Origin: Planctomycetaceae bacterium
Lineage (GTDB): Bacteria > Planctomycetota > Planctomycetia > Pirellulales > Pirellulaceae
Assembly (NCBI GenBank): GCA_021298315.1
Contig: JAJTFC010000001.1
Coordinates: 1-64,000, forward strand
Direction of reading: 5' to 3'
DNA: 64,000 nucleotides
The notes under the pieces were generated by a model. It worked only from the letters and a program-made list of their open reading frames with translations. It had not been told where the DNA came from and did no database searches. Within the stretch, counting starts at the first letter, position 1. The number at the start of each line of letters is the position of its first letter. Of this stretch, positions 10,576 to 44,300 are shown piece by piece. A program made the translations under genes and the position numbers.

Positions 10576-11455
10576 TGTTGATCGCTTTATTTTCATCATT
10601 CTATGTTTGTGGGCTGCCCAGCCAGGCGCCATTGCCCAAGAGGATCCTCGTTTGCAAGGCGAAGCACTCAGGCGCGGGACGAATCCGGTTTGGGCCGATG
10701 TCCAACAAGAAGGTGTGCAGTATGGTGCAAAACCAATGGGTCGGGACGATCTGGAGACTCGCGATAAGTGGGCTGATGATGCTGGGACCTTTTGGTCTTG
10801 GCTATTTGGGAATGGAAATAGCAATTCAAGTTTCAGTCGTAGCAACACGGGTACAAGCGGTTCTTGGTCACCATTTTGGACAGACTTTTGGAGTTGGTTT
10901 TTCTACCTTCTGTACTACGGTATTTTGATTCTTCTAGCTATTGGTCTCATAGGCGGTTTTGTCTGGCTACTACAGAGTCAGGATCTTATATGGGGCTGGC
11001 GAAGATCCCGGAATTTTGATCAGACCGAAGATCTTCAGGCACAGCAAGCGAAGTATTCTGATTTACCGGTCGAGTTGGAGCGAGGTTTGCTAGGGTTGAA
11101 AGCCCAAGCCTCGGCGTTGAAGGATCAAGGTGACTATTCGAAGGCGATCGTCTATCTGTTTAGCTATCTGTTGGTCGAGCTCGATTCGGCCCATTGCATC
11201 TTGCTATCGAAGGGAAAGACGAATTACCGCTACCTGAGAGAGTTGGCCCGACATAGATCTTTAGAAATGCGACTCGAACGCGTCGTCATGTTGTTCGAGG
11301 AGTGCTATTTTGGACGCCGAACAATTACCAAGCAACAGTTTGATCCTATTTGGGAGGATCTTCCGAACTTCGAAGCGGAGATCAAAAAAGCATCGAATCT
11401 CGCACATGAACCTTCGACTTCTGGCGAAACACAACTCGCAGGAGCCTCATCTTGA
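10568..11455 (+). CDS. DUF4129 domain membrane protein
   Basis: Predicted 295 residues: a signal peptide (FIFIILCLWAAQPGAIAQ), an extracytoplasmic linker rich in Ser/Asn/Gly, one transmembrane segment (LLYYGILILLAIGLIGGFVWLL), and a cytoplasmic C-terminal DUF4129 domain with ALKDQGDYSKAIVYLFSYLL and the closing FEECYFGRRTITKQQF. I choose the TTG at 10568 because AAGGAG lies at 10555-10560 with 7-bp spacing and the signal peptide then starts directly; an ATG at 10496 would overlap the upstream gene by 80 bp and add a charged leader. DUF4129 proteins are often found with transglutaminase, MoxR and DUF58 genes. Confidence 0.85.
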   Translation: MFSVDRFIFIILCLWAAQPGAIAQEDPRLQGEALRRGTNPVWADVQQEGVQYGAKPMGRDDLETRDKWADDAGTFWSWLFGNGNSNSSFSRSNTGTSGSWSPFWTDFWSWFFYLLYYGILILLAIGLIGGFVWLLQSQDLIWGWRRSRNFDQTEDLQAQQAKYSDLPVELERGLLGLKAQASALKDQGDYSKAIVYLFSYLLVELDSAHCILLSKGKTNYRYLRELARHRSLEMRLERVVMLFEECYFGRRTITKQQFDPIWEDLPNFEAEIKKASNLAHEPSTSGETQLAGASS

Positions 11456-12903
11456 GAACCTCTTTAGTCAATCTTCCTAAGAGAGCTTTCCTGTGGCTTT
11501 TTGTGGCTATTTTTTCGACGTTGACTGGCTGTAAAACCGAGGTCTCCAACAACTACGGCGGGAGTGACTCCCAGGACTCCGAGCGCAGTCCTGGCGGTCT
11601 GACCGTGTTCCGGGAAATGGTAAAGTCTCGCAAAAGATCAACGGAATCCTTACTGAACCTTAGCCCCACGCTTGAGAAGAGGTTTCAAACTCTGGTTTGG
11701 AGCCCGAATTATTTTCCGCAACACGATAAAGCAACTGTGGATCGAATCGACAATTGGTTGCGGTCAGGTGGTAAAACCCTAGTTTACATTGGACGCGATT
11801 TTTCGCCAAACGCGGAGTACTGGAATCGTATATCAAGTCAACCGACGAGTCCATTGAATGCTAAAGCCAGAGCGATTGGACAAACCCAAAGTTCCAATGA
11901 GGCCATTGAATTGGACGAGCTTAGAGATGGGACTAGGCCGCTCTTGATCACTCCCTGGTTCTACTGGCGGCAAGTCCCTGGGGCTTTCGAAGAGGTTGGC
12001 AAGTTCCAAGGGGAATGGTCAGGCATCGAATCGCTTGCAAAGCCCGATATGCAAATCCGATCTCCATTGGTGCCTTTTAAGAAAGGGGATGTGGATGCTT
12101 TGATCAAGGAGCTTGATTGGGATCCAGCGACAACTGCGGGCGTTACGGCCAAGACCGGTTCGACTACAGTTCCCCCACCCCCGAGAAAATGGTTCAATAG
12201 AACGATACAGCGAGGTGTGGTCTGGGGTAACAACATTGGACAAAAGGTTTGGAATACCGACGACCGTGATCTGCTAGCGATTGCGAAAGGAATCCAGCAA
12301 GGCGATCTGGATAGCCCAACTACTTTGTTAGCTACCAGCGATGGAGTGCCCTTGATCACAGAAGTGAGGTATCGCAGCAGCTCGAGTCGAGTCTTGATCC
12401 TATCGAACATTTCGATGGTTTCCAATTTGGGATTGCTCAACCGTTCGAATCGGGATCTGGCCGATAGAATCATAAGTAGATTCGAGACCGGTGCAGTCGG
12501 TTTTATCGCCGGAGAGAACGACCCAACGCTGCGTAAGGGGCTAGCCCACGAAGAGCACAAGGGGTTCGAAATGCTTACGGTTTGGCCGTTCAATGCTATG
12601 ACAATCCATGCGGCATTACTCGCCATCGTGGCAGCCATTGCTGCTTTTCCTATCTTCGGAAGACCAAGAAGCGCACCGGTCAAATCCAGCGTAGACTTTT
12701 CAGAACACGTTGAATCGCTTGGGGAATTGCTGCGAGCAACTGATGGTAGTCAGTACGCCAAGGATGCGATCAGCAAATATTTCAGAGTGGTGCGTCGAGA
12801 TACGAAATCGGCCTGGGCTACGAGAATTACGGCTGAGCAACGCTCAGAGCAAGCCAAGCCCGAAGACGAACCATCGCCCTACAGCGATTCTTCGAACTCC
12901 TAA
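11452..12903 (+). CDS. DUF4350 domain protein, putative lipoprotein
   Basis: A 483-residue protein starting at TTG, overlapping the DUF4129 stop as TTGA with GGAGCC 5 bp upstream. The N-terminus looks like a lipoprotein signal (WLFVAIFSTLTGC, Cys near residue 27). A DUF4350-like Rossmann region follows (LVWSPNYFPQHDKATVDRID, WLRSGGKTLVYIGRDF). A transmembrane helix lies near residue 385-400 (TIHAALLAIVAAIAAFPIFG) and a charged cytoplasmic tail ends the protein. In many bacteria this gene precedes a MoxR AAA+ ATPase and a DUF58 gene; here it is the last gene of the operon, meeting the S9 peptidase gene tail-to-tail with a 4-bp overlap. Confidence 0.82.
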   Translation: MRTSLVNLPKRAFLWLFVAIFSTLTGCKTEVSNNYGGSDSQDSERSPGGLTVFREMVKSRKRSTESLLNLSPTLEKRFQTLVWSPNYFPQHDKATVDRIDNWLRSGGKTLVYIGRDFSPNAEYWNRISSQPTSPLNAKARAIGQTQSSNEAIELDELRDGTRPLLITPWFYWRQVPGAFEEVGKFQGEWSGIESLAKPDMQIRSPLVPFKKGDVDALIKELDWDPATTAGVTAKTGSTTVPPPPRKWFNRTIQRGVVWGNNIGQKVWNTDDRDLLAIAKGIQQGDLDSPTTLLATSDGVPLITEVRYRSSSSRVLILSNISMVSNLGLLNRSNRDLADRIISRFETGAVGFIAGENDPTLRKGLAHEEHKGFEMLTVWPFNAMTIHAALLAIVAAIAAFPIFGRPRSAPVKSSVDFSEHVESLGELLRATDGSQYAKDAISKYFRVVRRDTKSAWATRITAEQRSEQAKPEDEPSPYSDSSNS

Positions 12904-15245
12904 GGAGATTGCAGATGTCGGCGGAAAAAATCATCTCGACGCCGCTTGCAATAAGGTGTCGAGCCCACACCGTGACCGCCCCCAGGAATATACAGAAGGT
13001 CGAAATCCTTGTTGGCCCGAACAAGCGCATCGACGACTTGCATGGTTGACGCCGGATCGACATTTGAATCGAGTTCACCGACGACCAACTGCAACTTGCC
13101 TTGCAATCGATGGGCATTAGCAACATTAGAATTCGCCTCGTAGTGTGGGCCGAGAGGCCAACCCATATAAAGTTCGTTCCACCATACTTTGTCCATCCGA
13201 TTGTCATGGCAACCGCAATCGGCCACTGCTGCATCATAAAATTCTCCGAAGAAAAGCAAAGCGGCAAGTGCGTTTTGACCACCGGCAGAGCCTCCATAGA
13301 TTCCAACTCGCTCGATATCCAGTTCGGGATACTCCTTGGCGGCAGCTTGCATCCAGAGAATTCGGTCTGGGAATCCGCCGTCGCTCAAATTGCGGTAGCT
13401 CACATCGTGAAAAGCTTTACTGCGGTTCGAGGTTCCCATTCCATCAATCTTCACAACTACAAAACCTTGATCCGCCAAGCCGTGGAACTCCGCCAATGCT
13501 GAAAAGTTTTTTGGGACGAAGGAGTCTTGAGGACCAGCATAGATGTTTTCGATCACTGGGTACTTCTTTCCAGGCTCAATCGACCGGGGTCTTACGATGA
13601 TGCCGTAAATATCGGTTTGGCCGTCTCGCCCTTTTGCCACGAATCGGATCGGCTTGTTGCTATCGGTCCACAGGTCTTTCGAACTATTGACTTCCAGCTC
13701 GAGGATCAACGCCCCATTGACGGCAGACCTTAGTTCATGGACAGGGGGTAAGTCGACCCGTGAATAGGTGTCGATGAGCCACTGCCCATCGGGTGAAAAA
13801 TCGACGGTATGGTCGCCGTCGCCTTGCGTGAGTTGGGTCAGATTTTGGCCGTCGAAATCGACTCGGCATAGATGGCGATGATAGGGATCCTGACCGTGGG
13901 CGATTCCGCCTGCATAAAACCAAATCTGCTGTTTCGCAGTGTCGATTTTTTCGATGGATCGTACTACCCATTCGCCGCTGGTGACTTGATTGATAAGCTC
14001 GCCATCATCCACCGAATAGCGATACAAATGATACCATCCATCTCTTTCACTCCCCCATAGAATCTGACGATTGTCCAAGATCCATTCCCTATAGGCCTTG
14101 GCGGCATAGTCGATGTAGGTCGGGCTGGCTTCCTCGATCAGCGAACTGACCAATCCTGTCGTAGGGTCGACAGCGATGAGCCTTATGACTTGATGCCCAC
14201 GCTGGTTGTAGAAGAATGTAAATCGATTGTTTGTAGCATCCCATCGGATCTGTTCGATCGACCATGGGTTATTGAAAAGGGAGTTATCAAGAGGAACGAG
14301 AGTCCCGGTATTTAAGTCGAAGAGTCGGAGGATTGGACGATCGAGCTTGTCTCCTGGTTTGTCGTACCGAATGGTTTTCGTCTTGGGCTGCAATTGGTCG
14401 CGGGGCGAGGATTCCACAAGCGTTATTTCTCGATGATCTCCTTGTTCGGTTTGCAGGGTCATGGCAAAACGATGATCCGAGGACCAGTAGATCGGTTGAT
14501 CATATCGGCTCGTCTCGCTACCCATCGCTTGGCCAAGATTTGCAGTATCGAGAACGATCTGGCCTGAATCTGAGAGGAAACGGATTTGATATTGGTCCCG
14601 CTCTACCTTGAATCGTCCCTGAGGAATTGTTCCATCGGTTGCATCGCCGGAATTGCGGTTGGCTCTACGGCGCCCGTTGCGATTCGGGAATAGCGAATCA
14701 GACTCGATATTCATGCTTTGGATTTCTAGCAGTTGGCCTTGGGAGGAAGCCACGGAGGACCATATCGGTTTCTTGCCATCGAAACTCGCTGCCCAAGAGT
14801 GCCCGGCAAAGGTCGATTGTTTGCGGGATTGGTTTGGTGAGAGCTTGCCATAACTGCGAGGGACGCCTTGGAAATCGATCCAAAAGAACTCAACTTCTTT
14901 GTCCGTGAGATTTTTGATTTCGATGTCGATTCGGGCTTCATCGAGCGTTTCAGAAGGATCGATGCGTCCGGAGGAGGATTGTTGGGTCAGGGGAAAACCA
15001 GCAAGTTTCTGCAGTTCGTCAAGCGATTCGGCTCGCAGAATTATTTTCTTGGATGGTTCAACCCAGACAAATTGTCGCTGTCCTGTTGGGCTGGATTTGG
15101 AGTACCAAAATCCCTTGTCCTGAATCCATTGGGGTTTGATTTTATGAAGGATTTGATCGTTTTTTTGCGCAATCGATGTTGTTGGCCCAAGGAGTAAAAT
15201 TACAAGAACCGCTATCCAATGGGTGGGTTCGAAAGATGTCCGCAT
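12900..15245 (-). CDS. S9 (DPP IV-type) prolyl peptidase with embedded VHL-beta domain
   Basis: A 781-residue exported serine peptidase. A signal peptide (WIAVLVILLLGPTTSIAQ) is followed at residues about 106-158 by a segment that aligns without gaps to the human VHL beta domain. A DPP IV N-terminal beta-propeller follows to about residue 520, then a C-terminal alpha/beta hydrolase domain with GGSAG nucleophile elbow (S653), acid D726 and H758 in GGGHG. S9 enzymes cleave short peptides after proline. The ATG at 15245 has GGAG 6 bp upstream. It stands alone, convergent with the RDD operon. The VHL segment is discussed as a finding; its function here is inferred only. Confidence 0.93.
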   Translation of the reverse strand: MRTSFEPTHWIAVLVILLLGPTTSIAQKNDQILHKIKPQWIQDKGFWYSKSSPTGQRQFVWVEPSKKIILRAESLDELQKLAGFPLTQQSSSGRIDPSETLDEARIDIEIKNLTDKEVEFFWIDFQGVPRSYGKLSPNQSRKQSTFAGHSWAASFDGKKPIWSSVASSQGQLLEIQSMNIESDSLFPNRNGRRRANRNSGDATDGTIPQGRFKVERDQYQIRFLSDSGQIVLDTANLGQAMGSETSRYDQPIYWSSDHRFAMTLQTEQGDHREITLVESSPRDQLQPKTKTIRYDKPGDKLDRPILRLFDLNTGTLVPLDNSLFNNPWSIEQIRWDATNNRFTFFYNQRGHQVIRLIAVDPTTGLVSSLIEEASPTYIDYAAKAYREWILDNRQILWGSERDGWYHLYRYSVDDGELINQVTSGEWVVRSIEKIDTAKQQIWFYAGGIAHGQDPYHRHLCRVDFDGQNLTQLTQGDGDHTVDFSPDGQWLIDTYSRVDLPPVHELRSAVNGALILELEVNSSKDLWTDSNKPIRFVAKGRDGQTDIYGIIVRPRSIEPGKKYPVIENIYAGPQDSFVPKNFSALAEFHGLADQGFVVVKIDGMGTSNRSKAFHDVSYRNLSDGGFPDRILWMQAAAKEYPELDIERVGIYGGSAGGQNALAALLFFGEFYDAAVADCGCHDNRMDKVWWNELYMGWPLGPHYEANSNVANAHRLQGKLQLVVGELDSNVDPASTMQVVDALVRANKDFDLLYIPGGGHGVGSTPYCKRRRDDFFRRHLQSP

Positions 15246-15436
15246 GAAAGACTCCGATTTTTGGTTACTTTTGGGCGACTCGACCGATCTGGATTTTAGC
15301 CGGAAAGTTTGTCGTTGTGACTAGCCAACACGCCGTTGCTGAACAAGGATATAGGGGTTGGTGTTGACGCTTCAGACTGGATGCGCTGATCGAAATTGTG
15401 AATGAAGGAAACTCGTTTTAGTCCTACTAAGGTACT

Positions 15437-17056
15437 GTGCCTCCGACTCTTCCACCGCTGATTCTGCCTCTTGTCGCCTCCCTGGTTGGCTTGGGAATCT
15501 CGATCGCATTGACTCCATTCGTTAGGCATTACGCGCTGAGGTTCGGGTTAGTGGACTACCCGGATCGTCGTCGCAAATTGCATTTGCAGCCCGTCGCTCG
15601 ATGTGGCGGGATTGTATTGCTTGCAACGCTCTTGCTGAGCGTTTCTCTTGCTTTCTTAATCTTCCCAGGTCAATCAATCCATTTGGTACAGAAATCCTCC
15701 CAGGCGATCTCGCTTGGGATCGGTGCTATAGCGATCACGATTTTGGGATTGATCGACGACAAGTATGGGATGTTAGGCAAGCAGAAGCTGGCCTTTCAAA
15801 TTTTGATCTGCTTGGGGATTATCTCTTTTGGCTTTTCGATCGACACGATTCAAATCTTTGGCTATCCGATCGATTTAGGTCTGATTGCTTGGCCTGTGAC
15901 GTTGATGTGGTTGCTCTTGTGTATCAATTCGATCAATTTGATCGATGGTGCCGATGGTGTTTGTCCAACGGTCGGATGGATTGCTTTTGCGGCCGTAGCG
16001 ATCATCAGTTCCTACACTGGGAACCACATGGAGGCGATCATCGCCGCTTCATTGGCAGGTGCACTTGTAGGTTTTCTTGTGTACAACCTGCCGCCGGCTA
16101 GCGTGTTTCTTGGCGACAATGGCAGCATGCTTATCGGATTATTCCTCGGGGTCTTAACGATGCGATCGTGGTTCTCCAAGGACTCGTCGATGTCGATTAC
16201 CATCCCATTGGTGCTAATGGCGATTCCGATTTTTGATTCATCGATGGCCGTCGTAAGGCGGAAGCTAACCGGACGGAGTCTTTTTTCCGTCGATCGCGGG
16301 CACCTTCACCACCACTTGATCCGACGAGGGTTCCAAGACCGTGCACTCGTAGGCATCATCACCTTGTTCTCTTTCCTGACTGCCAGTGGAGCCGTTGCCG
16401 GTGTGTTGCTTGGTTCCGATTGGATTTCCTTAGCAACCATGGCTTTTTCGATTGGTGCGTTGGTTGTTTTCAAGCTGTTCGGATTTGCCGAGTTGAAACT
16501 CATGTACCATCGGATCGAAGGATTTTGCACCTCGCTGTTTATCCGACCCGATTGCATTGATTCCTTTGTTCATCAAGAATCTGTTCATCTACAAGGAACC
16601 AGAAACTGGGATGTGATTTGGCAAACTTTAGTGGAATTTGCCGAAAAGCATGGGCTCAGTCGCATCGAAATGGATTTGAATATGCCTTGGCTCCACGAAG
16701 GGTACCATGCCGAGTGGCAAAAGGCTGAGTTGCCTGAGGGCCCAAGGCGATGGAGTCTAAAATTTCCGCTAATACTCGGTGGCGAGAGCTTTGGGGGCCT
16801 AGAGTTTATCGGAAAGCAGCAAGAAGGTGAAAGTCTTTTAGTGCTAGCCCAGTTGACCGAACTTCTCGATGCGATACACAGCCAACTAGAGGCTTTCCGG
16901 TGCGACCACGAAGAAAACAGCAGTTCAGAAAGCCCACGAGACGAAGTAACCACGCGTGGTTCTAAGGTAGCGGTGGCAGCCGAAAAATCCGGATTTCTTC
17001 CCAGTAGCACGGGAGTTGTGACCTCAGGTGTCACAGCGGCTGTCGAAATTCCTTAG
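15437..17056 (+). CDS. WecA/MraY-type undecaprenyl-phosphate sugar-1-phosphate transferase with C-terminal extension
   Basis: A 539-residue polytopic membrane enzyme starting at GTG. The family's cytoplasmic motifs are present: GLIDDKYGM, the NLIDGADGV Mg2+ motif, FLGDNGSMLIG, and the HLHHHLIRRGF loop typical of WecA/TagO. It should transfer a HexNAc-1-phosphate from UDP-sugar to undecaprenyl phosphate, the first step of a surface polysaccharide. About eleven hydrophobic segments run to residue about 355. The remaining 185 residues form a soluble domain (IEMDLNMPWLHEGYHAEW, LKFPLILGGESFGGLEF) with GAF-like character that ordinary WecA lacks. It stands apart from other glycan genes; the sugar transferase and deacetylase genes are 37 kb away. 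Confidence 0.9.
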   Translation: MPPTLPPLILPLVASLVGLGISIALTPFVRHYALRFGLVDYPDRRRKLHLQPVARCGGIVLLATLLLSVSLAFLIFPGQSIHLVQKSSQAISLGIGAIAITILGLIDDKYGMLGKQKLAFQILICLGIISFGFSIDTIQIFGYPIDLGLIAWPVTLMWLLLCINSINLIDGADGVCPTVGWIAFAAVAIISSYTGNHMEAIIAASLAGALVGFLVYNLPPASVFLGDNGSMLIGLFLGVLTMRSWFSKDSSMSITIPLVLMAIPIFDSSMAVVRRKLTGRSLFSVDRGHLHHHLIRRGFQDRALVGIITLFSFLTASGAVAGVLLGSDWISLATMAFSIGALVVFKLFGFAELKLMYHRIEGFCTSLFIRPDCIDSFVHQESVHLQGTRNWDVIWQTLVEFAEKHGLSRIEMDLNMPWLHEGYHAEWQKAELPEGPRRWSLKFPLILGGESFGGLEFIGKQQEGESLLVLAQLTELLDAIHSQLEAFRCDHEENSSSESPRDEVTTRGSKVAVAAEKSGFLPSSTGVVTSGVTAAVEIP

Positions 17057-25960: not shown

Positions 25961-26006
25961 ACACGAATCACGGGAAGTTTGAGTGTCACATAAAGGACGC
26001 GAAAGA

Positions 26007-29000
26007 ATGTTTGCCCCGAGGCCGAACAAGGTGGCTTGGGATCAAGATCGGCACGCTTGCCTTACGGGCGGAAGGCTATTTGTGTTGTTGCGCCTTATGG
26101 GCCTGGTTTCATCAAGTCAACTTCTTTACGTCTTGATTGGGTTTTGGATTGCATTTTTACCGCTCGATGCGATGCATCGATTGAGCGCTCAGGATCCCAC
26201 AACTACACCTTCCGGTAGCATGATGCCACCGGAGAACTTGCCTAGGGTTGTGGGCCCTGGGGTGTTGCCTGATTTGATGTACATGAGAAACAGCAAGGGG
26301 GAAGAGATTCTCGTCCCACGTGCAAGATACGAAGAATTCGAGCGCCTTTTGATGGAGACCGAACTCGGCGGTGAAGGGCTTAGTGCTACACCGAGTTTGA
26401 ATCAATTGGATCTATTGATAGAGCCGGTATCGGACTACGCCAAAGTACAAGTTCGAGGAATGATCGCGTTAAAAAAAGCGAACAGAACCACTTGGACGAT
26501 CCCGATTGCATTGAGCCAACTGCAATGGATTCCGGCCAGTAAAGAAGGGGCTGAGGGTTCGCCGAAGCCAGACGAGTCCGGCTCACAGTCAGCTTACGAT
26601 GGAATTGAGAGCATCTCGGCTACGGCTCAGGCTAACGGTTATCTTTGGCGTGTGGGGCCAGGAAAATCGCTTCAAAGAAAGCTCGCTGTCGATGCGGTTT
26701 GCAAGTTCGTGACGACTCCTAGTGGCAATACCCTGCGGCTTGATCTGCCACCGGCTGCGACGGTCATTAAGCTGAAGCTGCCAAAGGGGGAGTGGGACTT
26801 GAATGCAACCGGAGGAGGCAACGAAGTAGTCGAGCCATTGCAGGTTCAAGGCGAGCATTCTGTCGCCATTGTTCGAACCTCCTCAAACTCGATCAATCTG
26901 ACTTGGAATCGCAAGACGAATCGAGATGCGATTGCAGCCGTCGAAGTTCGGAGTCAAACAAAATTTTCACCTGCTGGAGATGCGAACCGTTGGCGAGCCG
27001 ATTCGGCGATTTCGATACGGGGCCCAGTCAAACTTGGAGGTAAACGACTTCGTTGGGCGCTACCTCGACAAGGGGTATTGCGGGAAGCCAACTCCGATAG
27101 GATCGTTTTTTCAAACTACCGTCTGATTAGGGATTTTATTGGAAGCACTTCGGATAAACAGGGTTCTTCTGCGATTGTCCCTGGCGCGTCAGACCCTCCG
27201 ACTCTTGTTCGAGACAATCCATCTGATTTTTGGTGGATCGAGATTGATGAAGGTTATAGCCGAAGCGAACTGGATTTGAATCTTGAGTGGGAGTTGACAC
27301 GATTACCCACTGATTTGCAGGTTCGCTTCGAAGCTCCGAAGTTCGAGGGCGTTGATCGACACAACGGGAGCATTGAGTTTGCTGTACCTCGGATCAATTC
27401 GATCGATTGGAATCCCATAGGGAATGTTCAATTGATTCGGCAATCTCAAGCTGCCGATGGGAGCGAATCGATTGTTTACACTTTTCAATTTGATGGTCAA
27501 GAGGCGGGGATCTCAACACAATGGACCACGGTAGCCGATCAACCCAGAATCATCTCCCAGCAGAGGATCGAGGTACGTGAAAATCAGTTGGTTCTACGTG
27601 GTACGATCGAGTTTGGAAGCGATCCGATTCAGTTACCTCTTTTGCAGTTGGAGGCAGAGGGCTGGAAACCGGAACGAGTGGCCCTGTACCCGTCGGATAT
27701 TGATGTTCCATTGGATTCCATCAATGAAGCTGGTAAGTCACCCTCAGAGAACTCACAGGGGGGGTGGTCGTTACCGATAAACGCAAACCTTTGGATTCGC
27801 AGTAGTGCGAAAAACCGGTCCATCGCAACGGAAGCGAATCGAAGCGACAGACCTAGCGAGGGCAATTCCGTGGGGCTTAACCTCGGAAATCCTCTTGAGA
27901 TTCTAGCTAACTCGACGGATAAAAAGGAATCCAATTCGACTTGGAAAATTGAGTATCTACTTAGCCGGTCTATTTCGAACCAATCGAACGATCTAAGTTT
28001 GAGTTTACCGAGACTTTCTTGGCTCTCCCAAGAGTCCCAACAGAGAGTCTACCGAACCGCACCTGGTAGTTTACTTGTTTACAGTTGGCCTTACCGACTC
28101 ACAGCGCAACCCGATGCGTGTGTTGCAGTCGTCGAAACATCGCTAGATCGTATTCTTCAGAAGCAAGTATTCTCTGGTGGATCTGGACCAACGCCATTCA
28201 TGCTACAGTATCTGATCGCCGACTCGTCGAGCGTCAGCAGGTGGGTAGGTACAAGAAACAGAAAAGGCTCGTTCGTCACTTCGAACCTTTCGGCAAACGC
28301 GACACCGACCCGCGATTCGATTCGATGGGATCTTCGGTGGGATTGTAGGTGTTTGGGAAGTCGTCCTACTTCTCTTAGGATTGGACTTCCAATCGATCCT
28401 AACTCATCCAAAAATGAGCAGGCGATTTCTGATTTGTCAGTTCAAATGGACAGCACTGCTGTTCCATTCGAGTGGCTTGCGCCCGATGCTTCTCTTGCCT
28501 CTGGATACCGTTGGGCCAAATTGAGCATACCCGAGGTAGCTATCGATGGGAGCAACCGCCTAGACTTCCTTTTGGAGGTAAAGTATCTCGCTGAGGAATC
28601 ATCGCTAAAGAAACCGGATCAGCAGTTCGCACTGGGTTTAAACCTAGCAATCCTTGATTCTGCCAGACCAAACGAACAAGTCTTGGTCGAGGCCATGTCT
28701 GTTCGCATGCTCGATTCTGATTCATTGAGTTTGGTTCCACTCACTGAGTCGAGCCAAGGCTATATCGTAGTCGATCCAAGTGCACCTCGAGTTGCAGTAA
28801 CGGCCGTGCGTCGAACCAACCAACGAAGTCCCGAAATAAAAATAGATGGCGAGTGGATACAAACAATTGTCAATGCACTTGAGCAAAGAGATCGCTATGT
28901 TGTTCGCTTTCATACCGAGCAAAAAACCATCAGGGTGCCGGCATCAGGTACGATGATTCGTGAAGCAGAATGGATGCTCGATGGACAGCGGGCTAACATC

Positions 29001-29798
29001 CGCGAAGATCAAGAGGAAAAGGGTTGGGCAATCATTTACATCCCGGATTCGAATGCTTCGAATGAATCCACGACTCATGTTTTAGAGGTCTTTACCACTC
29101 AGACGGTGGCTAAAGGATGGTTTCGCAGGGTTCAGCCTATCGGTCCAAGATTTGCGCCAAATCCTTCGAACTCACCGTTGATATGGCAGATTATCGTTCC
29201 AAGAACTGAGCATCTTGTATCCAGTACTCAAAACGCTTTACCCATGTACCGGTGGACGTGGCGAGACTTGGTGCTACGTCGGGTCGGAGAGACAAGCCAA
29301 GAACAGATCGAACAGCGGTTCGGTGCAACAAAGCAACCGATTTTGGCACTTCAGGTCAATCAATACGATCTTACAAGCATCGCCTCTAGCCAACCGCTCG
29401 AAGCGAGATTTGTGCCCAGCGCTATCATATGGCTACCGGTATCGATCCTGGTTTTATGTTTGGCAACGGTGATGAAAGACAATCGATGGATTCGCTGGCC
29501 TTGGTTTTGGGCATGCTTGCTCGCTGCGTTCTTTATCTTTTCTCAGATCGCTTGGGATATATCGCTTCTTGTGCTGCAGGCAGCCGTAGCTTCCGTCGGG
29601 CTTGCTGTGCTCTATTCGATTGTCCGATGGTTGATGGATCGGAGAGCTCGAAGAAGGAGCATCTTTGTTTCTAGGCAATACACGTCGCCGAATACCAATG
29701 CGAAAGTCAACGCAAGTGGTAGGAATCAAAAAAGGTCGATCGGCGACGCATCGGCTCTGAAGTCGACAGTGACTGTGAAAACAAGGGATTCTCGATGA
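26007..29798 (+). CDS. Giant secreted/membrane-anchored protein, module A (1263 aa)
   Basis: No known family recognised. After a signal or anchor segment (LLYVLIGFWIAFLPLDAM) the protein has a short conserved-looking head (GEEILVPRARYEEFERLL), then about 1000 residues of predicted beta-rich, Ser/Asn-rich extracytoplasmic sequence, then a C-terminal block of three hydrophobic segments (WLPVSILVLCLATV, FWACLLAAFFIFSQIAW, LQAAVASVGLAVLYSIV) followed by a basic cytoplasmic tail. ATG at 26007 has AAAGGA 8 bp upstream; an in-frame GTG at 25983 is the alternative. The stop overlaps the next start (ATGA), so the two giants are translationally coupled. The head and the tail pattern recur twice in the next protein. 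The topology fits a large surface or periplasmic structure held in the inner membrane. Confidence 0.85.
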   Translation: MFAPRPNKVAWDQDRHACLTGGRLFVLLRLMGLVSSSQLLYVLIGFWIAFLPLDAMHRLSAQDPTTTPSGSMMPPENLPRVVGPGVLPDLMYMRNSKGEEILVPRARYEEFERLLMETELGGEGLSATPSLNQLDLLIEPVSDYAKVQVRGMIALKKANRTTWTIPIALSQLQWIPASKEGAEGSPKPDESGSQSAYDGIESISATAQANGYLWRVGPGKSLQRKLAVDAVCKFVTTPSGNTLRLDLPPAATVIKLKLPKGEWDLNATGGGNEVVEPLQVQGEHSVAIVRTSSNSINLTWNRKTNRDAIAAVEVRSQTKFSPAGDANRWRADSAISIRGPVKLGGKRLRWALPRQGVLREANSDRIVFSNYRLIRDFIGSTSDKQGSSAIVPGASDPPTLVRDNPSDFWWIEIDEGYSRSELDLNLEWELTRLPTDLQVRFEAPKFEGVDRHNGSIEFAVPRINSIDWNPIGNVQLIRQSQAADGSESIVYTFQFDGQEAGISTQWTTVADQPRIISQQRIEVRENQLVLRGTIEFGSDPIQLPLLQLEAEGWKPERVALYPSDIDVPLDSINEAGKSPSENSQGGWSLPINANLWIRSSAKNRSIATEANRSDRPSEGNSVGLNLGNPLEILANSTDKKESNSTWKIEYLLSRSISNQSNDLSLSLPRLSWLSQESQQRVYRTAPGSLLVYSWPYRLTAQPDACVAVVETSLDRILQKQVFSGGSGPTPFMLQYLIADSSSVSRWVGTRNRKGSFVTSNLSANATPTRDSIRWDLRWDCRCLGSRPTSLRIGLPIDPNSSKNEQAISDLSVQMDSTAVPFEWLAPDASLASGYRWAKLSIPEVAIDGSNRLDFLLEVKYLAEESSLKKPDQQFALGLNLAILDSARPNEQVLVEAMSVRMLDSDSLSLVPLTESSQGYIVVDPSAPRVAVTAVRRTNQRSPEIKIDGEWIQTIVNALEQRDRYVVRFHTEQKTIRVPASGTMIREAEWMLDGQRANIREDQEEKGWAIIYIPDSNASNESTTHVLEVFTTQTVAKGWFRRVQPIGPRFAPNPSNSPLIWQIIVPRTEHLVSSTQNALPMYRWTWRDLVLRRVGETSQEQIEQRFGATKQPILALQVNQYDLTSIASSQPLEARFVPSAIIWLPVSILVLCLATVMKDNRWIRWPWFWACLLAAFFIFSQIAWDISLLVLQAAVASVGLAVLYSIVRWLMDRRARRRSIFVSRQYTSPNTNAKVNASGRNQKRSIGDASALKSTVTVKTRDSR

Positions 29799-32700
29799 GA
29801 AGATTTTCCCTCGTTCTACTGGCGATTATTCTCGTTCCGCTGGGATCGATTTTCGCACAGGAAATCGGTACCAATGAGCAAGCTTCAGAACAACCGATCG
29901 TCGAGAGGCCCTTTCGTCGAATATTCGTTCCGCAATCGGATCTGCCCGAGTCGCAACTCGATAATCTCAGACCCCTTGAGATCGACAAACTTCCAGCAGC
30001 CCTTGAACGGATTGTCCGACGCAATACCGAGTCGATGGATCCATTAGGGAGTTCAAAGCAAAGCTTATACTCGCTCCACGCTGTGGCTCAGTTGATAGGG
30101 GCAGATCTTTTATCGGAACGAACAAAACTAGTTTGGGAACCATCGACGAATCGACCCTACACAGGGGGGACGGATCTTCAAGCCCGAGAGCGATTAAAGC
30201 CATGGAATCTTGCGATTGAAAATATTCTCGAGGAATCGAATTCCCAAAAAGCGTCCGGTCAACTCAAACCGAGTAATGATCGAATCGGAGAAACGGACAT
30301 CAATCCAGGAAACCCATTAGCTAACAGCTCACCGACTTGGTTGTATGATTCGAGCGGACAACCTTATGTTCAAAAAAGTAGCAATGAAACTTGGGTTCGC
30401 TGGTCGCTACGGTCCTCAAGCGGTAGCGCTCCGAATCAACTGAATTACGAAGCCCAAATTCCTAAGACGGTTGACGGTTGTTTGGTATTGCTCCTTCCAA
30501 GGTCTGCAAAAATAGACAAAGCCAGCGTTGTCGTCAGGGAACTCGATGGATGGGAGTCGGCCGTTAGGAGACTAGGATCCTGGCCCGATCAAAACCCTTT
30601 GCTAGGAACTTCGCTCGGAACAACCGTTGGAAGTAGGTATTGGTTGTTGGAATTCAGCGGTCAAGAGGTCATTTCATTTACGATTGATCTTGGTCAAGGC
30701 TCCTCGCGTGGGCAACTGCTCGATTTGCCAAAGGAGTGGGGCATCGATCGATTGTTCTCTAAGCAAACGCTGCAGTATTCGGTCCATGCGCAAGAGATGA
30801 GAATCATCGGTGAATGGGAGTGGAATGAAACATCGGGTGCCGGACAAGGCATCCAATTGGAATTGCCAGAGGGGGTAAAGGTACGATCCATTGCGATCAA
30901 TGATCGAGAGACAGCAATTGCGCTCGATGATAAAAGGATGATCGTGAGCGTCCCTGAATCGTCTCCCAGCGCTTCAATCGGCACCGGGGCAAGGCTGAGG
31001 ATGACTGCCGAATTTTTAACCTCCATCAATCAACTCCAAACCGATGCGTCTGGGAATTTTTTGATACCCACCATAAAAACCACAAACGGAACCATCGTAT
31101 CAGGAACGACAATTCTTCAAGATCAGTTCGACGGCAGATTTGTTGGTATTGATCCAGAGCGTGGCAGACTCGAATCGGTCCGAAAGAACTCCGATGGTCT
31201 TCATCGCTTTGAATTCTCATGGCATCGCAATGCACCGATTTTTCGATGCGATATTCAGAAGCAAGCATTGCAAACAGAGCTGGAGTCCGTCGCGGGGATT
31301 CGTATTGATTCGAATCGTTGCGTAGCGAATGTTCGCATCAGATTACCTTCTCCGCGATCCATAGTGGGTGAAATCCTCAGTGTACCCGGCGGTTGGACGA
31401 TCGATGCAAAAGCAATTACTGTCAAACCGCAATCGGCATCCGGAATCGCCAGCTTCGATGAATCCAACAACACGATTAAGATCGACGGACGAAAGGTTAG
31501 TTCGACCGACGCCACGATCGAATTTCAAATATCTAAGAACCTCGATACGCCTGCTGAATTAGACTTATCTAATCTACCGTGGATATCTATATCAAACCAC
31601 AAAGTTCGCAAGTGCCTCTACGTGGAGCCAGATGCTTCCAACCGTTTGAGCTTCCGTGGCCGCACAACCCAATGGGTTATGCCAGAACAAGAACTGACTC
31701 CATGGCAGCGAGAATCTCTACCGAGGCTCTCAAGGGCATTGGTTTTCGGCATGCGTGAAGACCGCTTACCACCTCTGGTCGTATCGTCGATCGAAGAAAA
31801 ATTGGTGATGCCAATAGACATCCGAGTCCGTCGCGTAAACGACCTATGGAAGCTAGAGCATCGCTTTGAACTATCCTCAGATTGGTTGGAATTGCCGCAA
31901 ATTCGAATTGAACTGCCAGCCGGTTTTACCTGGTACTATGAGTCGTCTGAGCGACTTCCGATTGCCAATTCTTTCGATCCGGAATCCGGCCAATGGGTTG
32001 TCGATACACGGAGCCTAATCAATCAGTCCGACAAAGAAAATTTCGGGGTTATTGTCGCGGTTCGTTCCGAGCCTGTAGATTCGGAGAGCCTGCAATTAGA
32101 TGTTCCACGGGTGCGTGAAGCCCAACGAACCACATACGAATTGAAACTTACCGACCCCTTAGTTCTCAAAAGCAGTGCAGGAATAACCGCAGGGATAGAA
32201 CAAGACAACTCTGGTTACACCTACCGATGGATTCAGGTTGCACCAAAAGCAATGTCGGAGGAGCACAAAAAACAGGAACCTTCACGACTCGAAATCATCG
32301 ACTCGAATCAACCCAAAGACCGTTCAGTTTATCTATACGACACAAGCTTGGATTTATTGATTGACTCCTTCGCTCATCAAGTTGCCGAGATCCAAACAAA
32401 ACTCGTCTTGCCCGATTTCCAAGGGAATGCGCTGAAGATCTTTCACCCGGAAGGATGGCAAATCACTGATTGTTTTATTGTTCATGAAGATCAAAAGCAA
32501 AATGTCCCTTGGTTCGAAGATTCAATGAAATCATCCAAGATTGTTATTGATCATGCCAGTGAAAGTGCAGCACCTTTGCTTCACGTACGCCTAGTCGGTC
32601 CGCAAGCAGCTTTTGTGAAAGATTCGTTTCGATTTCTCCCACAGTGGCTAAGTTCTAGATTGCATCGGAATGTGAGATTCAGCATCCCCGATATAGGTTT

Positions 32701-35700
32701 GGGCGAAGATGGTTTCGAGTTTTCGCGACTGGACGTCTGGTATCCAGAGCCGTTAACTCTAAAGATCCCGCACTTTGGGCGTCCTCTAAGCGGTGGGATT
32801 TGGCCGGTCTGGAGTTGGACTTCAAGAACCCTCGGATCGATCGCTCAGCCGGAGGACAAAAACGAACAGTCGGTTTTTGGACCAAACACGGGTACTCGGA
32901 CGTCGGATATTCTTCCTACGGGAAATTGGAAGAAAACCTCCCTTGAAGAGTTACAAGTCGTGGCAAAACAAGAGATGGTTTTGGTTCTCTCGGATCAGTC
33001 CTCCTGGGGTGCTTGGCTGACCGTCTTTGCTGCAGTCTTTTCTTCGAGCTTTTACGTACGGTGGCCAAAAGTATTGCTAGGCTTGGCGATGGCACTGTGG
33101 GTGGGTTCGGTTTGGCTCGATACACCTTATAGCACCATTTGTCAGCAAATTTTTGTAGGTACTGCTTCAGGTGCCTTGCTATATCTGCTTTATCATATCG
33201 TACATCCTATGTCGGTCAGCAGTTCATCGAATGCAAAATCCGATCGTTCTAGCACTTGGGCCTGGAGCCTTTTACCTTTCGGATTGATCTCGATGGTACT
33301 GGCACAACCCAATCGTGGGTTGTCTCAAGACCCTGCCGATTCAACAGCCAGGGTTTTTGATATCCTTATCCCAATTAGCCCCGATGGTGAACTTGCGGGC
33401 ACGAATATTTATGTACCGGAAGAGTTGCTCAAGATCATCGAGCAGGATGACCGGGAAAAGCGACAACGCGATTCGGTCGGCTTGCTCGCGTCGAGCAAAC
33501 ATAATCTTCGGTTGGATAGTCGAACGTTCGGTTTCGGTAATGCTGACCAACCCTTGACTAGCACCTACGAATTTTGGATTAGTGATTCCGCTGTCGGAAA
33601 GGCAATACGAATACCTTTCCCCTCTGAATCCGTGAAACTGAGCCGCTTTAGTGTCGATGGTATCGAGGTTCTCTCAGGGAGATTAACGAAGACGGATACC
33701 GAGTTGGTATGGTTTCCCGATCGGGCAGGTCGCCGCGCGGTTCAGATCGATGCGCAAGTTCGAATGAGAAGTCTTGATGCGGCTGATTCAAGTGCAAGCT
33801 TTGGGAATCAAGCTTTTACCAATTTAGCGATCGCTTCTGGAACACTAGGTACAGAGAAACGCGGAGCGAAGGTTTGGGGGATTGCCACGAATATTCTGCC
33901 TGTAGCAAATTCGATTTTAGAAGTTGATACCGACGGTGCTTGGTGGATTTCGGTTGCCGCATGTGGCAGATCAGCCAATCCAGCTCAGGGCCGCGTGGTT
34001 ATCCAGCTTGGAAACAAAAGTCGTATCGAAGGTTTTTTCCAGCCACCTACTTCTTCTCCAAACCGAACATCAACCCTTGCCATGCCCAGCGACTCTTCTC
34101 CAAGCGGAGGAGAGGTTCCCACGATGAATACCGAGTTGTTTCTAGATAGCGACCAGCTGCTGGCAAAAACCGTGATCGAGTTCCCCCAAAACATGGTGCT
34201 TGCCGGTGAAATTGAGATCGAATCGGATTCTCAATGGTTACCCATCGGTACCCAATGGGGAGATGCTCAATTGATCGACGTACGTACCGGCAGTACGCTC
34301 GACAGGAAACGATATGCCATGCGGTGGAGAAATCTTGAGCCCAGCGGATCGGAAACAATCAGTCCGAATACTCAGAAGAAGGTGATCACTACAACTTGGA
34401 TCCCAATAGGGGATAGTGGGATCCGAAATATTTTGTTTGCCGAATGCCGGGATCGACGAGTTCGACAGGGTGTATTACGGTATTCCCGAAGTCCGGGATC
34501 GATTTGGACGTTAGACGGAATCAGCAGTTGGATACCAGCGATCAATTCGAAGGAACGACTCGATTGGCCCGAATTGAAGGATCCACCACTGACAACCAAC
34601 CTGCGTATTCCCATCAGTAGTGGATTTGGCGTTCTACGACGACAATCCTTAGAGCCATTACAGCAATTGTCCGCAACCAGTAGGGTCCATCTGGAATCGC
34701 AACGAACAAGGCTGACGACGACCATTAAGCTTGATGGTTCATTGGGCCAGCGTGCCCCCCTGCTCTTCGAGATCCCAAACGAATATCAAGTTCAAAACGT
34801 CCTGTCCCCTAGTGGAACACTGGACTTTCTAACGTGGGTGAAAGATTCAAAATCCTATTTGCAGGTTCTTGTCGATCGACAGTCCAATTTAATCGGTGAG
34901 CTCACTATTGAGTCTAAATCCAGTTTGCCAATAGGCGATACAGAAGCTTTCGGCTTCGATTGGCCTGAGATTAAGGCATCGGTTGGTTGGGCTAACACCA
35001 TTCCGATGTCGTTATCAGCAGACCCATCATGGACTATTTTGGACGATGGTTCCAATCAAGCTACTAAACGATTGCAAGGCGCGGGTGAAGGGCGAGTTCT
35101 TTTGCAAACCAAAGACGGAAATGATCGTCGTCCATCGATACGTATCCAAAGAGCGGAGCCTAAATGGGAAGGCACACTGCTGATCAAATCCTCCCAATCC
35201 GAATCCGGCCAGCAAGTTTTGCAAATTGTTGGATTTCAGCCTCAGAGAGCATCGGGAGATTGGTACGGATTGGAATTGTCTATCCCACGCGAACTGTCTT
35301 CGTCCTGGTCGAGTAAAAACCCATCTGCTGAACTGACGAATCTGCGATGGAATCACAGACTTCTTTTAATAGAACCAGTTCCCACCGCATTGGTCGATCA
35401 GCAGCAGTCGATCGATTTTATGATTGAACTGACACCAGAGCAATCCATCAGACTGGATCCGCTATTTTTCGAACAGATCGAAATCAATGGGCGGAAACCA
35501 AGCGAACTGTATCTTGCTTACCAAGAACCCGATATCCTCTCTGGGCTCGCACAAGATCGACAACCCATTGCACAAAAACTCGATGGGCCTATTCGCATGG
35601 CGATCGGTATTACCGAAGACGATTGGCTCCTGGGGAGGCTGACCAAGCCTCTAACGAGCCTTGAGGAAACGCAGATGCTGAAAGTAGAATCCGAATATCA

Positions 35701-36637
35701 ACAACGCTTTGCTAAACACATTCAACTTGCAGACGGCTTGTACCTTTCCCAAATTTGGATTGAAGGCCGCAGAGATTTCTTGTCCAGTGGTCGGCTCAAG
35801 TGGAACTGTCCAGTTGGATGGATTTGTACGAAATCCTATATCAACGGAGAGAACTTCCCGTTCAAACAAGAGGGCTCCCAAGTTGACGTCTTTTGCCCAT
35901 CTATAGAATCCAACGCCAAGGTGGATTTGTGGTTTTCGCTCGACGCACAAGCATCTGCGAATGTATCTCAGGATTCTTTACCCCAATTGCAAGGCACTCA
36001 CAGCCCCGGCGAGATTCTCCTTGTTAGCACCCCATCAAACCGTCGCAACAAGCAGTCGGGCGTTTTATTTGAACGAAACGCTTGGGTCAGTATGCTTAGC
36101 CAACAGATCCCTTCGACACCTAATGCGTCCGACTCTAGGTGGTTGAGATATGGCGCTAAAGAGTTGGCAGAATTGATGTGGAGATCGGCCGAAATGCATG
36201 GTGACGACAAGGACACAATGTCTAGCGTAGAATTCGGAAAAGCGGCTGAGGTCCTTTTCAACTTACCCTGGACCACTCGGGATGAATACAATCAGCTTAT
36301 CCAAAGTGCCCAAGCATCAGTCCATTCGATCAAAAAATACGATTCGAGTGAAACGACTCAGGCCAAGGGCACGGTTCCTTTGGATCACCGTTTGGTACAG
36401 ACGGCCTTTCCACTGTTTGTTTTTTCGATCTTGATTTGGATATGGAATCGCTATCAAGTTTGGTTTCAGAACCGCAACTGGTGGAAACTGCTTGGTATCG
36501 CCGGTCTATGGTGGTTGATTTTCGCGGATTTGTGGATCCCGAGTTTGCTTGCCCTGTCGGCTGCGATTTTAGTGATCGACAGTTTCTGGATGCTTAGCGT
36601 GCAGTTTCGACAAAGCGGGACTCTCGCACCACGGTAA
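29795..36637 (+). CDS. Giant secreted/membrane-anchored protein, modules B1 and B2 (2280 aa)
   Basis: No known family recognised. A signal peptide ([19 protein letters not shown]) leads two successive modules. B1 has a head ([21 protein letters not shown]), a beta-rich body, and an internal membrane block near residues 1070-1135 ([35 protein letters not shown]). B2 has a head ([14 protein letters not shown]), a second beta-rich body, and a terminal membrane block at about 2200-2268 ([29 protein letters not shown]). The membrane blocks resemble the one that ends the preceding 1263-residue protein, so the pair appears to hold three diverged copies of one module. Start overlaps the upstream stop as ATGA; the 3' end overlaps the RNase Y gene by 44 bp. 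Function unknown; an envelope scaffold or surface role is inferred from topology only. Confidence 0.88.
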
Positions 36638-41192: not shown

Positions 41193-41387
41193 ACTTTACC
41201 CAGGGCGAACTTGCTTTTGGCATCGCAATCCCTACCAATCGCATGATCCACTTCCGGTGACGAACCGGGAGTGCTTTTTCTAGATCTGCCGATTATAGTA
41301 CACGACTCGATGCCGATCTCTAAACCACCTGCGGACTTCGGTCCGTCCCACCGGTGGCGCTGGTTTCTCGAACTATTTTACCCAACC

Positions 41388-44300
41388 ATGATTCTCAGGC
41401 TCCTTTCGCGTGCCGCGACCTTGGCGTTGCTCCTTTTTGCAGCCTCCTCGATCGCCCTTGGACAATCCCCCGATTTGGCTCGTCTGGTGCTCCCTGAGGT
41501 CGCTGAACGACTGAGCCTTTCCGATACCCAAAGGGCTGATATCCAAAAGCTTGTCCAAGACCAAGCCGCTGCGGTCGCTTCGGCTACCGATGCCGTTACC
41601 AAAGCATCAACGAAAAAATCGTTCGATGAAAAGATCACCGCCCTTTTGACCCCAGAGCAAAAAAACCTACTGGCCGAACTCGATGAGAATCGCAAGCTCC
41701 GCTTTCAGTTTCGCGAGATGAAATGGGACGATGTTCTCGAATGGTTCGCCGAGCAACAAGATCTCACGCTCGTGATGGATCGAACTCCTCCGGGGACATT
41801 CACTTATAGCGATGCGAGAACCTACACTCCTACTGAGGGGATCGATCTGATCAATAGTGTTCTGATGACGCGAAATTATTCGCTCATGCGGCGCAACAAA
41901 ATGCTCGTGGTCGTCGAACTGAGCGACTCGCTACCTCTTGAATTGATCCCCCGAATCAAACTTGAGGAACTTGCCACACGCGGTCGTTTCGAATTGGTCT
42001 CCGTCGCATTTCCTCTCGGTGGAAGACCTATCGATGCGGTACTCGGTGAAGTCAAACCTTTTCTTAGCAATTACGGTCGCGCAATTCCGCTGGCCCAAGG
42101 CACCCAACTGTTGGTTGTCGAGAATGCTGGCAAGATGCAAACCATCAACGAGTTGATCGCGTCGATCCCGGTGCCTAAGGTTCCGCCAAAACCGGAACCG
42201 GTTCCTCCACCAAAGCCCGTTTTTGCAACCTATTCTCTGGGGAATCTCGATCCGGCGGCGGTGCTCAAGACAATCCAAACGCTCATCTCTTCGGACAATA
42301 TCACCGTCGATCCGAAAACCGCTGTGCTCAGCGCATATGTCCCACCCGACACCCAAGCAACCATCAAATCAATCATCGAAAAGATGACCGAAAACGCGTT
42401 TGGAAACAACCAGCTCGAATCGGTCGCTTACCAAGCCTCTAAAGCGGTTCCTGAAGATCTCAAAAAGCAAATCTTAGCGATCGCTCCCAATGCAATCGTA
42501 CTTACCTCGACCGATCGGGTGCAAGTCACGGCGACAACTGCCGAGCAAGCGCTCATTCGTGCAGGCTTGATCGGACTGGATATTACCCCGGTGATCGATT
42601 CCCCAAACATGAAGGTTTTTGAGATCGACCCAGCGTTAGCCACCATCGCTGAGACAGCGATGAAAGCATTTCTTCCCAAAGCCCAAGTCGGTGCGAATTC
42701 CGGGGCCGGTGCTTTGATCGTAAGAGGTACTGAAAAGGATATCCAACTGGCCTCCGAAATATTCGACATCTGGAAAAAATCGCAGGTTAATAAGTCCCTG
42801 CAAATGAAATCGTTTCCCCTCGATCGGATCGCTGATACCAAGTGGCTCACTACGGTCACGAAATTGGTTCCCAATGCGAGTCTATGGTTAAACCCCGAAG
42901 GTAAAGAATTGCTGATGCTCGCTGCACCGTCGGATATCTCGGCAGTGGAGTCCTCACTTCCAACCTTGCTCAATCTCCTTCCAAAACCCGCAAATCGTGA
43001 ACTCAAGCTGTACGTTCTTACCAAGAACCAACTCGCAAGACGTGCGCTGCTTGCCGCCGAACTGCCAACGGATCTCGCGTCGGTAAAACTCGTCGATGGC
43101 ACCAATAAGGAAGAGCTTTTCGTTTGGGCCGAACCGAATCAACACCAGCTGTTCAAGAATTTTTTGGATAGCCTCGATCAAGCGGCTCCGATTCCGACGG
43201 CTAACGTTCTAAAGACTTATCCGCTCGAGACGACTGAGTCCACTCTCGTGCAGACGTTACTGACCTCGGAATTCGCCGAAGCCAAAGTGACTCTCGATAC
43301 CGAAGGAAAGCGACTGAATATCATCGCTCCTGAAGTCCTCCACCAGAGAATAGCCGATCGGCTTTCCTCGATCGAAAAAGAGCTACCCAAGCGGCCTATG
43401 CTGCGACTGGAATCTTACTCGGTCCCTGGAATGACGGCCGCTGCACTCAGTACTGCGCTGACTCCGTTAACGACCAAAGCACGCGTTAGTGTTGATTCGG
43501 CTAAAGATCGGTTGCTCATCACGACCGATGAACCCAACCATTTGGAAATCAAACAACTCATTGAAGCAATGAGTGCTCAAGCGACGCCTGATAAACAAAA
43601 GCTTGTTGTGGTTTATCCGATCCAACATGCAAGTCCCACGCAAATCAAAACTGTCTTGGATCTAATCACCACGGGCGCAACTACGCTTGCAGATGAGAAA
43701 CTCAAGCAGTTGACCGTGACAGGATCGATTGAAAGTCAGGGGTTTGCGAAGTCGACGATCGAACAAATGGATCGGCCTCGAGCAGGCGACGGAAGCCCAA
43801 AGGAAATCCGCAGTTTTGATACGAAAAAAACATATGCGACATACCTCTTGCCGTTGCTGCAAAAAATCTATCCCGATGTCGATCTGGCGGCTGATGCAAC
43901 AACCAACCGGATCCTGGCAACTGGAACAAAGGTCGAATTGGACCTGATCGGTCAATCGCTCGATCGCTTGATCTTGTCCCCGGATGGATCCCCACAAAGC
44001 GTTAAAACGTATTCGGTCCCAAGTGGCGACATGACGACGCTTCCTACGATCCTCGGACAAATTGCACCTCAGGCCCTGATCAGTTCGGATGCGACCTCCA
44101 GAACGGTCACTGTTTTCGCAACCGATGACCAACACTCGAGAGTGGCTCAAGCGATCGAACAAATCAGCAAAACGGCGACCAGTGCCAAGCAGCCTGCCAC
44201 CTATAACGTCAAGCCAACACAAGTCACAGCGGTTCAAACTGCGTTGATCACGTTGTTCCCAACGGCTAGCGTCGCCGCCGTGCCAACGGCTGGCCAACTG

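Follow-up and report, generated by a model that had tools for sequence, protein, structure and literature searches.

The window analysed here, a stretch of 64,000 nucleotides comprising positions 1 to 64,000 of contig JAJTFC010000001.1 (assembly GCA_021298315.1, Planctomycetaceae bacterium), carries a gene for an S9 family serine peptidase in which a VHL beta domain is inserted near the start of the beta-propeller. VHL is known from animals, where it reads hydroxyproline in the sensing of oxygen. The bacterial insert has the residues of the human hydroxyproline pocket, with Thr for Ser111, and these are retained nearly throughout the S9 inserts, while the domains borne by other proteins frequently lose the pocket His. 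The catalytic triad of the peptidase is intact and its S1 pocket is not that of a proline-specific enzyme. Comparison of the sequences leads us to propose, tentatively, that the insert may be an accessory ligand-binding module that recruits substrate to the peptidase, with hydroxyproline as the leading candidate. The gene and its parts are as follows:

12900..15245, minus strand: gene of the S9 family serine peptidase that bears the VHL beta domain insert (open reading frame (ORF) with ATG start, 781 amino acids)
15165..15245, minus strand: N-terminal segment resembling an export signal, residues 1-27 (judged by eye; helix at residues 8-18 in the model)
14718..14933, minus strand: VHL beta domain, residues 105-176 (approximate), seven strands (Pfam, profile search, AlphaFold2, Foldseek)
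13743..14492, minus strand: DPPIV_N beta-propeller region, residues 252-501 (Pfam, E 9.8e-42)
12909..13493, minus strand: Peptidase_S9 catalytic domain, residues 585-779 (Pfam, E 2.2e-41)

The preliminary description of this DNA had placed a VHL beta domain in a bacterial peptidase and aligned it to human VHL without gaps. A Pfam scan of the 781-residue protein lists eight families, with VHL, DPPIV_N and Peptidase_S9 among them; PF01847 matches residues 109-151 (E 4.6e-9, 36.6 bits against a gathering cut-off of 21). The PF01847 profile scores 40.3 bits at this gene in a search of the whole genome and has no match in any of 14 control genomes. The 72-residue stretch of the window has diverged too far to match human VHL firmly as a single sequence: phmmer reached VHL weakly (E 0.009-0.018, residues 116-153) and behind two CD276 chains that outranked it by chance. 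When 35 bacterial domains carried by S9 proteins are combined into a profile, human VHL is reached at E 1.6e-12 to 1.7e-11 in an alignment of 62 residues with zero gaps, and the next other protein follows at E 0.18. AlphaFold2 predicts seven strands at residues 105-175 in the full-length model (mean predicted local distance difference test score (pLDDT) 88.6) and in that of the isolated domain (pLDDT 85.1) alike. With the isolated domain as the Foldseek query, all 50 listed PDB matches are VHL entries (template modelling (TM) score 0.57-0.68 by query length, root-mean-square deviation (rmsd) 1.8-7.5 Å), the best having E 7.8e-6, TM 0.67 by query length, rmsd 2.0 Å over 82 columns and 21% identity. 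Residues 105-176, approximately, are a genuine VHL beta domain: Pfam, profile search (E about 2e-12) and fold search concur, which rules out a chance match and bears out the domain as well as the gap-free alignment of the preliminary description. Contamination with animal DNA is also ruled out, since 56 of the 392 genomes sampled from the phylum (the window's included) have PF01847, with 77 matches in total, in frame with bacterial enzymes. The domain as such is detectable by any Pfam scan, being covered by the PF01847 model. Among the eight families listed for the protein there is no match to the VHL alpha domain, which binds elongin C and by which an orthologue of the tumour suppressor pVHL would be recognised; in the model the VHL domain is followed first by a disordered segment that includes two short helices and then by propeller strands.

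According to a review (PMC9528729), the hydroxyproline site of VHL is formed by W88, Y98, H110, S111, H115 and W117, with S111 and H115 bonding the hydroxyl, Y98 the carbonyl, and H110 acting via its backbone. In animal VHL the pocket is described as almost invariably conserved (PMC6650433). The equivalents in the window, with their conservation in 67 bacterial domains and in 16 further S9 domains from weaker Pfam matches, are:

14880..14882, minus strand: W122, equivalent to human VHL W88 (kept in 67/67; 15/16 further S9 domains)
14850..14852, minus strand: Y132, equivalent to human VHL Y98 (kept in 66/67; 16/16 further)
14811..14813, minus strand: T145, equivalent to human VHL S111 (Thr 57, Ser 9, Pro 1 in 67; Thr in 16/16 further)
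14799..14801, minus strand: H149, equivalent to human VHL H115 (kept in 67/67; in S9 inserts 61/61 and 16/16)
14793..14795, minus strand: W151, equivalent to human VHL W117 (kept in 67/67; 16/16 further)

The pocket residues W88, Y98, S111, H115 and W117 thus all have their counterparts, with Thr at S111. The 61 S9-inserted domains keep W88, H115 and W117 without exception (61/61), Y98 in 60/61 and a Thr or Ser at S111 in 60/61, and the single deviation at W88 among the 16 further domains is a Tyr (in L140). N78 is the sole further position invariant in 67/67; the positions conserved family-wide are N78, W88, Y98, S/T111, H115 and W117. All twelve identities to human VHL listed in the preliminary description are present, along with its Thr at S111, and its claim that the pocket residues are kept extends to the S9 homologues (61 and 16 domains). 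Among the other identities of that list, F91 (12/67), which borders the pocket, P95 (12/67) and R107 (32/67) are variable, and L101 varies among aliphatic residues.

Pfam places the VHL domain also on sulfatases and on SASA esterase-type, GH127-type, F5/8-NPCBM, leucine-rich repeat (LRR), metallopeptidase-like and kinase-MORN proteins. All 77 PF01847 rows were examined (the window, the 30 loci L001 and L003-L031, 25 selected stretches, and 21 rows added later since the earlier ones were mostly strong matches). A set of 94 domains was sorted by host into 61 S9 inserts and 33 others, after exclusion of L002 (the window), L131 (a copy of L001), L035 (cut by a contig end) and L056, L083 and L109 (treated as contigs already represented by other rows). 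The 21 later rows comprise the 16 further S9 domains, one of which (L135) repeats L040 by its letters, and five others. In the 33 placements that are not S9 inserts (32 other proteins and L114) the position of H115 is occupied by His 17 times, by Ala 14 times and by Asn twice; 27 of them retain Y98 and 30 retain W117. Of the five later domains placed elsewhere, four have the His and one has Ala. H115 is thereby lost in 17/38 domains outside the S9 inserts, a comparison in which kinship is not controlled. Within the 94, His-less domains are found in 3/3 SASA-type, 4/4 LRR, the GH127 and 6/9 sulfatase-type cases, the host labels coming from Pfam scans of 20 proteins and for the others from likeness to these (five putative sulfatase rows, 2/3 SASA, 2/4 LRR, 1/2 NPCBM, L114 and L120). 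In the remaining 3/9 sulfatase-type domains the His is present, but Y98 is replaced by Thr and W117 by Phe. The metallopeptidase-like rows, nine in number, have His in 9/9 and Tyr in 7/9; only L020 passes the Pfam cut-off as such, L012, L030, L129 and L130 being weak, L123 and L128 matching VHL only, and L013 and L021 being unscanned.

This range of hosts, together with the Thr that most domains have in place of Ser111, would fit a domain whose ligand is not hydroxyproline but a glycan, a cell-surface polymer or another feature of peptides, and which targets planctomycete proteins in a general way. The pocket is, however, kept residue for residue in the S9 inserts, and its decay on sulfatase-, esterase-, LRR- and GH127-type proteins suggests differing uses rather than a single one; we regard a general targeting role with another ligand as rather doubtful.

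Several of these hosts deserve mention in their own right. In L116 (3518-4432, minus strand) a VHL beta domain lies C-terminal to GH127 middle and C domains, and its pocket His is Asn; some GH127 enzymes act on hydroxyproline-linked arabinosides. One genus (g123; genomes G148, G281, G117 and G349, rows L112-L117) bears several VHL domains on different proteins, namely LRR, SASA-type, sulfatase, NPCBM-F5/8 and GH127-type proteins and an S9 protein with a C-terminal VHL domain. L124 (1933-3654, minus strand) encodes a protein kinase in which MORN repeats are combined with a VHL domain (22.8 bits), whose pocket is complete (W, Y, S, H, W).

In the S9 relatives the domain occupies a common position, one region of the propeller near its start. 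It is in the same ORF in 38 of 80 relatives (in L035 only as a cut piece), records from Armatimonadota and Verrucomicrobiota included, and in another ORF of the locus in L088 and L089. The other 40 have a linker of 3-23 residues at the insertion site (38 relatives) or one of 50 (L072) or 67 residues (L085); relatives were counted as carriers only where a domain model built for this analysis matched at E<=0.01, which strongly decayed copies could escape. The VHL domain ends 423-559 residues ahead of the catalytic Ser (median 472 in 56 sequences). In a quickly built tree of 79 S9 rows, based on the catalytic half, presence and absence of the domain change at least 11 times, and well supported branches force four of these changes; they are gains or losses whose direction is not distinguishable, and the domain is dispensable. 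It is not required for catalysis, because S9 relatives with the same catalytic residues are without it.

This dispensability would fit an insert that is structural, providing stability or an oligomer contact, with aromatic residues that belong to the fold and meet no ligand. W88, N78, T/S111 and mostly W117 are indeed retained even in His-less domains, and these residues, part of the supposed pocket, may be partly structural. The fold does not need H115, however, because this residue is lost in 17/38 domains elsewhere, and the S9 inserts have His in 61/61 and 16/16 and Tyr in 60/61 and 16/16 where both vary on other proteins. The retention of H115 in the S9 inserts looks selected and suggests a function. 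We consider a purely structural role unlikely.

The catalytic centre and the site of the proline S1 wall were located by alignment:

13287..13289, minus strand: catalytic Ser653 (GGSAGG)
13068..13070, minus strand: catalytic Asp726
12972..12974, minus strand: catalytic His758
13179..13211, minus strand: residues 679-689 (C-H-D-N-R-M-D-K-V-W-W), site of the DPP4-type proline S1 wall

Propeller, hydrolase domain and Ser-Asp-His triad are all present, which places the protein in the S9 family. S653 is found in 57/59 VHL-bearing rows (one gap, one Ala) and in 42/42 rows without VHL, and D726 and H758 in all rows that reach them (36/36 with VHL, 42/42 without). The oxyanion residue Tyr569 (DPP4 Tyr547) and the equivalents of Asn710 and Val711 are kept. 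The S1 pocket of DPP4 consists of Y631, V656, W659, Y662, Y666 and V711 (PMC10420935). With the DPP4 numbering transferred via HMMER alignments to DPP8, DPP9, 8pba and the Porphyromonas gingivalis enzyme discussed below, these six residues correspond to A654, C679, N682, D685, W689 and V729. The replacements are shared by the family, irrespective of the VHL domain: A654 in 57/58 rows with VHL and 42/42 without, C679 in 40/41 and 42/42, N682 and D685 each in 37/38 and 42/42, W689 and V729 each in 36/36 and 42/42. Tyr to Trp and Val to Cys are mild changes; Tyr to Ala, Trp to Asn and Tyr to Asp are not. The hydrophobic proline S1 pocket of the S9B enzymes is absent, only V711 being kept as such. 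Cleavage after proline, as the preliminary description had it, is therefore unsupported, five of six DPP4 S1 residues being replaced family-wide (A, C, N, D, W); the substitutions point to an enzyme family with its own P1 preference, in which the bond cut need not follow a proline. A Pro- or hydroxyproline-specific exopeptidase fed with hydroxyprolyl peptides by its VHL domain is most improbable given these replacements (Asn and Asp among them), even if prolyl tripeptidyl aminopeptidase and DPP4 enzymes are the nearest solved structures. In a weak alignment, the segment in which the N-terminus-binding Glu would lie, residues 236-250, shows no recognisable Glu pair. A bacterial DPP4 is reportedly able to act on a 4-hydroxyproline substrate.

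The reading that we favour, recruitment of substrate by the insert, would work as follows. A probably exported, DPP4-like S9 peptidase, whose signal was judged by eye from the N-terminus, would use the pocket of the insert to capture a peptide or an extracellular protein by one of its small side chains, trans-4-hydroxyproline being the leading candidate, and the captured substrate would be held for the catalytic chamber. The preliminary description had spoken of a secreted peptidase for hydroxyproline peptides; the probable export and the VHL domain with its pocket stand, while the post-proline cleavage is unsupported. Binding of hydroxyproline by the domain is plausible.

Several observations weigh against this reading. 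Conservation in the 67 domains does not extend to N67 and R69, next to the pocket; I109 is mostly Gln there and S111 mostly Thr, and the models leave room for a pocket that may be closed or may face the propeller. The non-S9 hosts (sulfatases, esterase-type, GH127-type, LRR, kinase) argue against a narrow link with prolyl peptides, and L114, the only S9 protein seen with a C-terminal VHL domain, is without the His. The window's genome (89.6% complete) has no gene of the prolyl-hydroxylase-like family PF13640, other hydroxylase families not having been tried, which speaks against self-made hydroxyproline; the ligand would therefore have to be foreign, for instance from algal or animal proteins. 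The genome-level link of VHL with PF13640 or with PF05544 (proline racemase / hydroxyproline epimerase type) is weak as well. PF05544 (E<1e-20) is found in 23/56 VHL genomes against 54/336 others, and PF13640 in 18/56 against 45/336, with genome size and kinship uncontrolled. Within the window's class there is no difference (PF05544 14/15 against 18/25, PF13640 6/15 against 13/25), and outside it the figures are 9/41 against 36/311 (p 0.08) and 12/41 against 32/311 (p 0.002), respectively, kinship again uncontrolled. The window's genome itself has one strong PF05544 gene (E 1.6e-80) with both Cys motifs of this type, MCGH and SPCGTGT; it adjoins serA- and serC-like genes (by eye) and is not visibly among genes of hydroxyproline catabolism.

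More broadly, VHL domains might constitute a bacterial extracellular hydroxyproline-reading module, which would rely on the same pocket as the reading of HIF in animals and deliver hydroxyproline-rich algal or animal proteins to exported peptidases, with the His-less versions on sulfatase-, esterase- and GH127-type proteins reading something else; this we put forward as rather unlikely. Were hydroxyproline binding true, the reader module would exist well outside animals and the ubiquitin system, dozens of natural variants (Thr111, His-less) would be at hand for probing what the pocket requires, and a route of planctomycete attack on hydroxyproline-rich proteins could be named. Even with a different ligand, the domains on other proteins that have lost the His provide a natural comparison.

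The host of the gene is a Pirellula-like planctomycete. The nearest named relatives (L032-L035) come from Pirellula or from Planctomycetota metagenome-assembled genomes (MAGs), with 74-79% identity in the best segment. The gene is flanked by a glycosyltransferase-4 (GT4) gene (15437-17056) and by several consecutive genes on the plus strand (RDD, SpoIIM, one without match, DUF4129-like, DUF4350-like). Homologues of the four genes from SpoIIM to DUF4350 are present in L032-L035, and homologues of the GT4 gene in L032 (a fragment), L033, L034 and L036-L038. The assembly has a second VHL-S9 gene (G000:C161, row L131), which homologues of the window's neighbours at 11452-17056 adjoin (GT4 79%, DUF4350-like 53% identical) and which clusters with L033-L035 on the S9 tree; its contig may belong to a second species in this MAG (4.43% contamination) or be a segmental copy. 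Elsewhere in the window two very large ORFs are adjacent (25983-29798 and 29795-36637, of 1271 and 2280 amino acids), with zero Pfam matches at E 1e-5, and an ORF of 1931 amino acids at 41271-47066 bears three Secretin_N stretches, which is long for a secretin.

Human pVHL (1lm8, 1lqb) shares with the insert the fold, the gap-free alignment of 62 residues, W88, Y98, H115 and W117, and a side chain with a hydroxyl at S111. The bacterial domain differs from it in having Thr for Ser111, in not keeping N67 and R69, in the lack of a visible alpha domain and in its location inside a peptidase. In searches with the whole protein, both by sequence and with Foldseek, the best solved relative is the prolyl tripeptidyl aminopeptidase of P. 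gingivalis (2d5l, 2dcm; Foldseek TM 0.57-0.60 by query length), with which the peptidase shares the triad. The Tyr beside the catalytic Ser of that enzyme is Ala here, however, its S1 wall W/Y/Y is N/D/W, and its Glu636 (named in the title of 2z3w) aligns with the invariant Lys686; the enzyme is not among the VHL-type matches of the phmmer and profile searches. DPP4, DPP8 and DPP9 (S9B) have in common with the window's protein the fold, the triad and the equivalents of Tyr547, Asn710 and Val711, whereas Y631, V656, W659, Y662 and Y666 are A, C, N, D and W here and their GWSYGG is GGSAGG. EMK97_00595 of Litorilituus sediminis, a bacterial protein with a VHL domain and a predicted signal, has already been published (PMC9002001); that paper reads the protein as a tumour-suppressor analogue, the word peptidase is absent from its text, and no analysis of the pocket was seen there. 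Apart from PMC9002001, the open-access literature, as far as it was accessible, yielded no study on VHL domains in planctomycetes or on their function in bacteria. The domain itself was already known to Pfam; what this analysis adds is the residue-level contrast of its pocket between host proteins, together with the non-proline S1 pocket of the peptidase that carries it.

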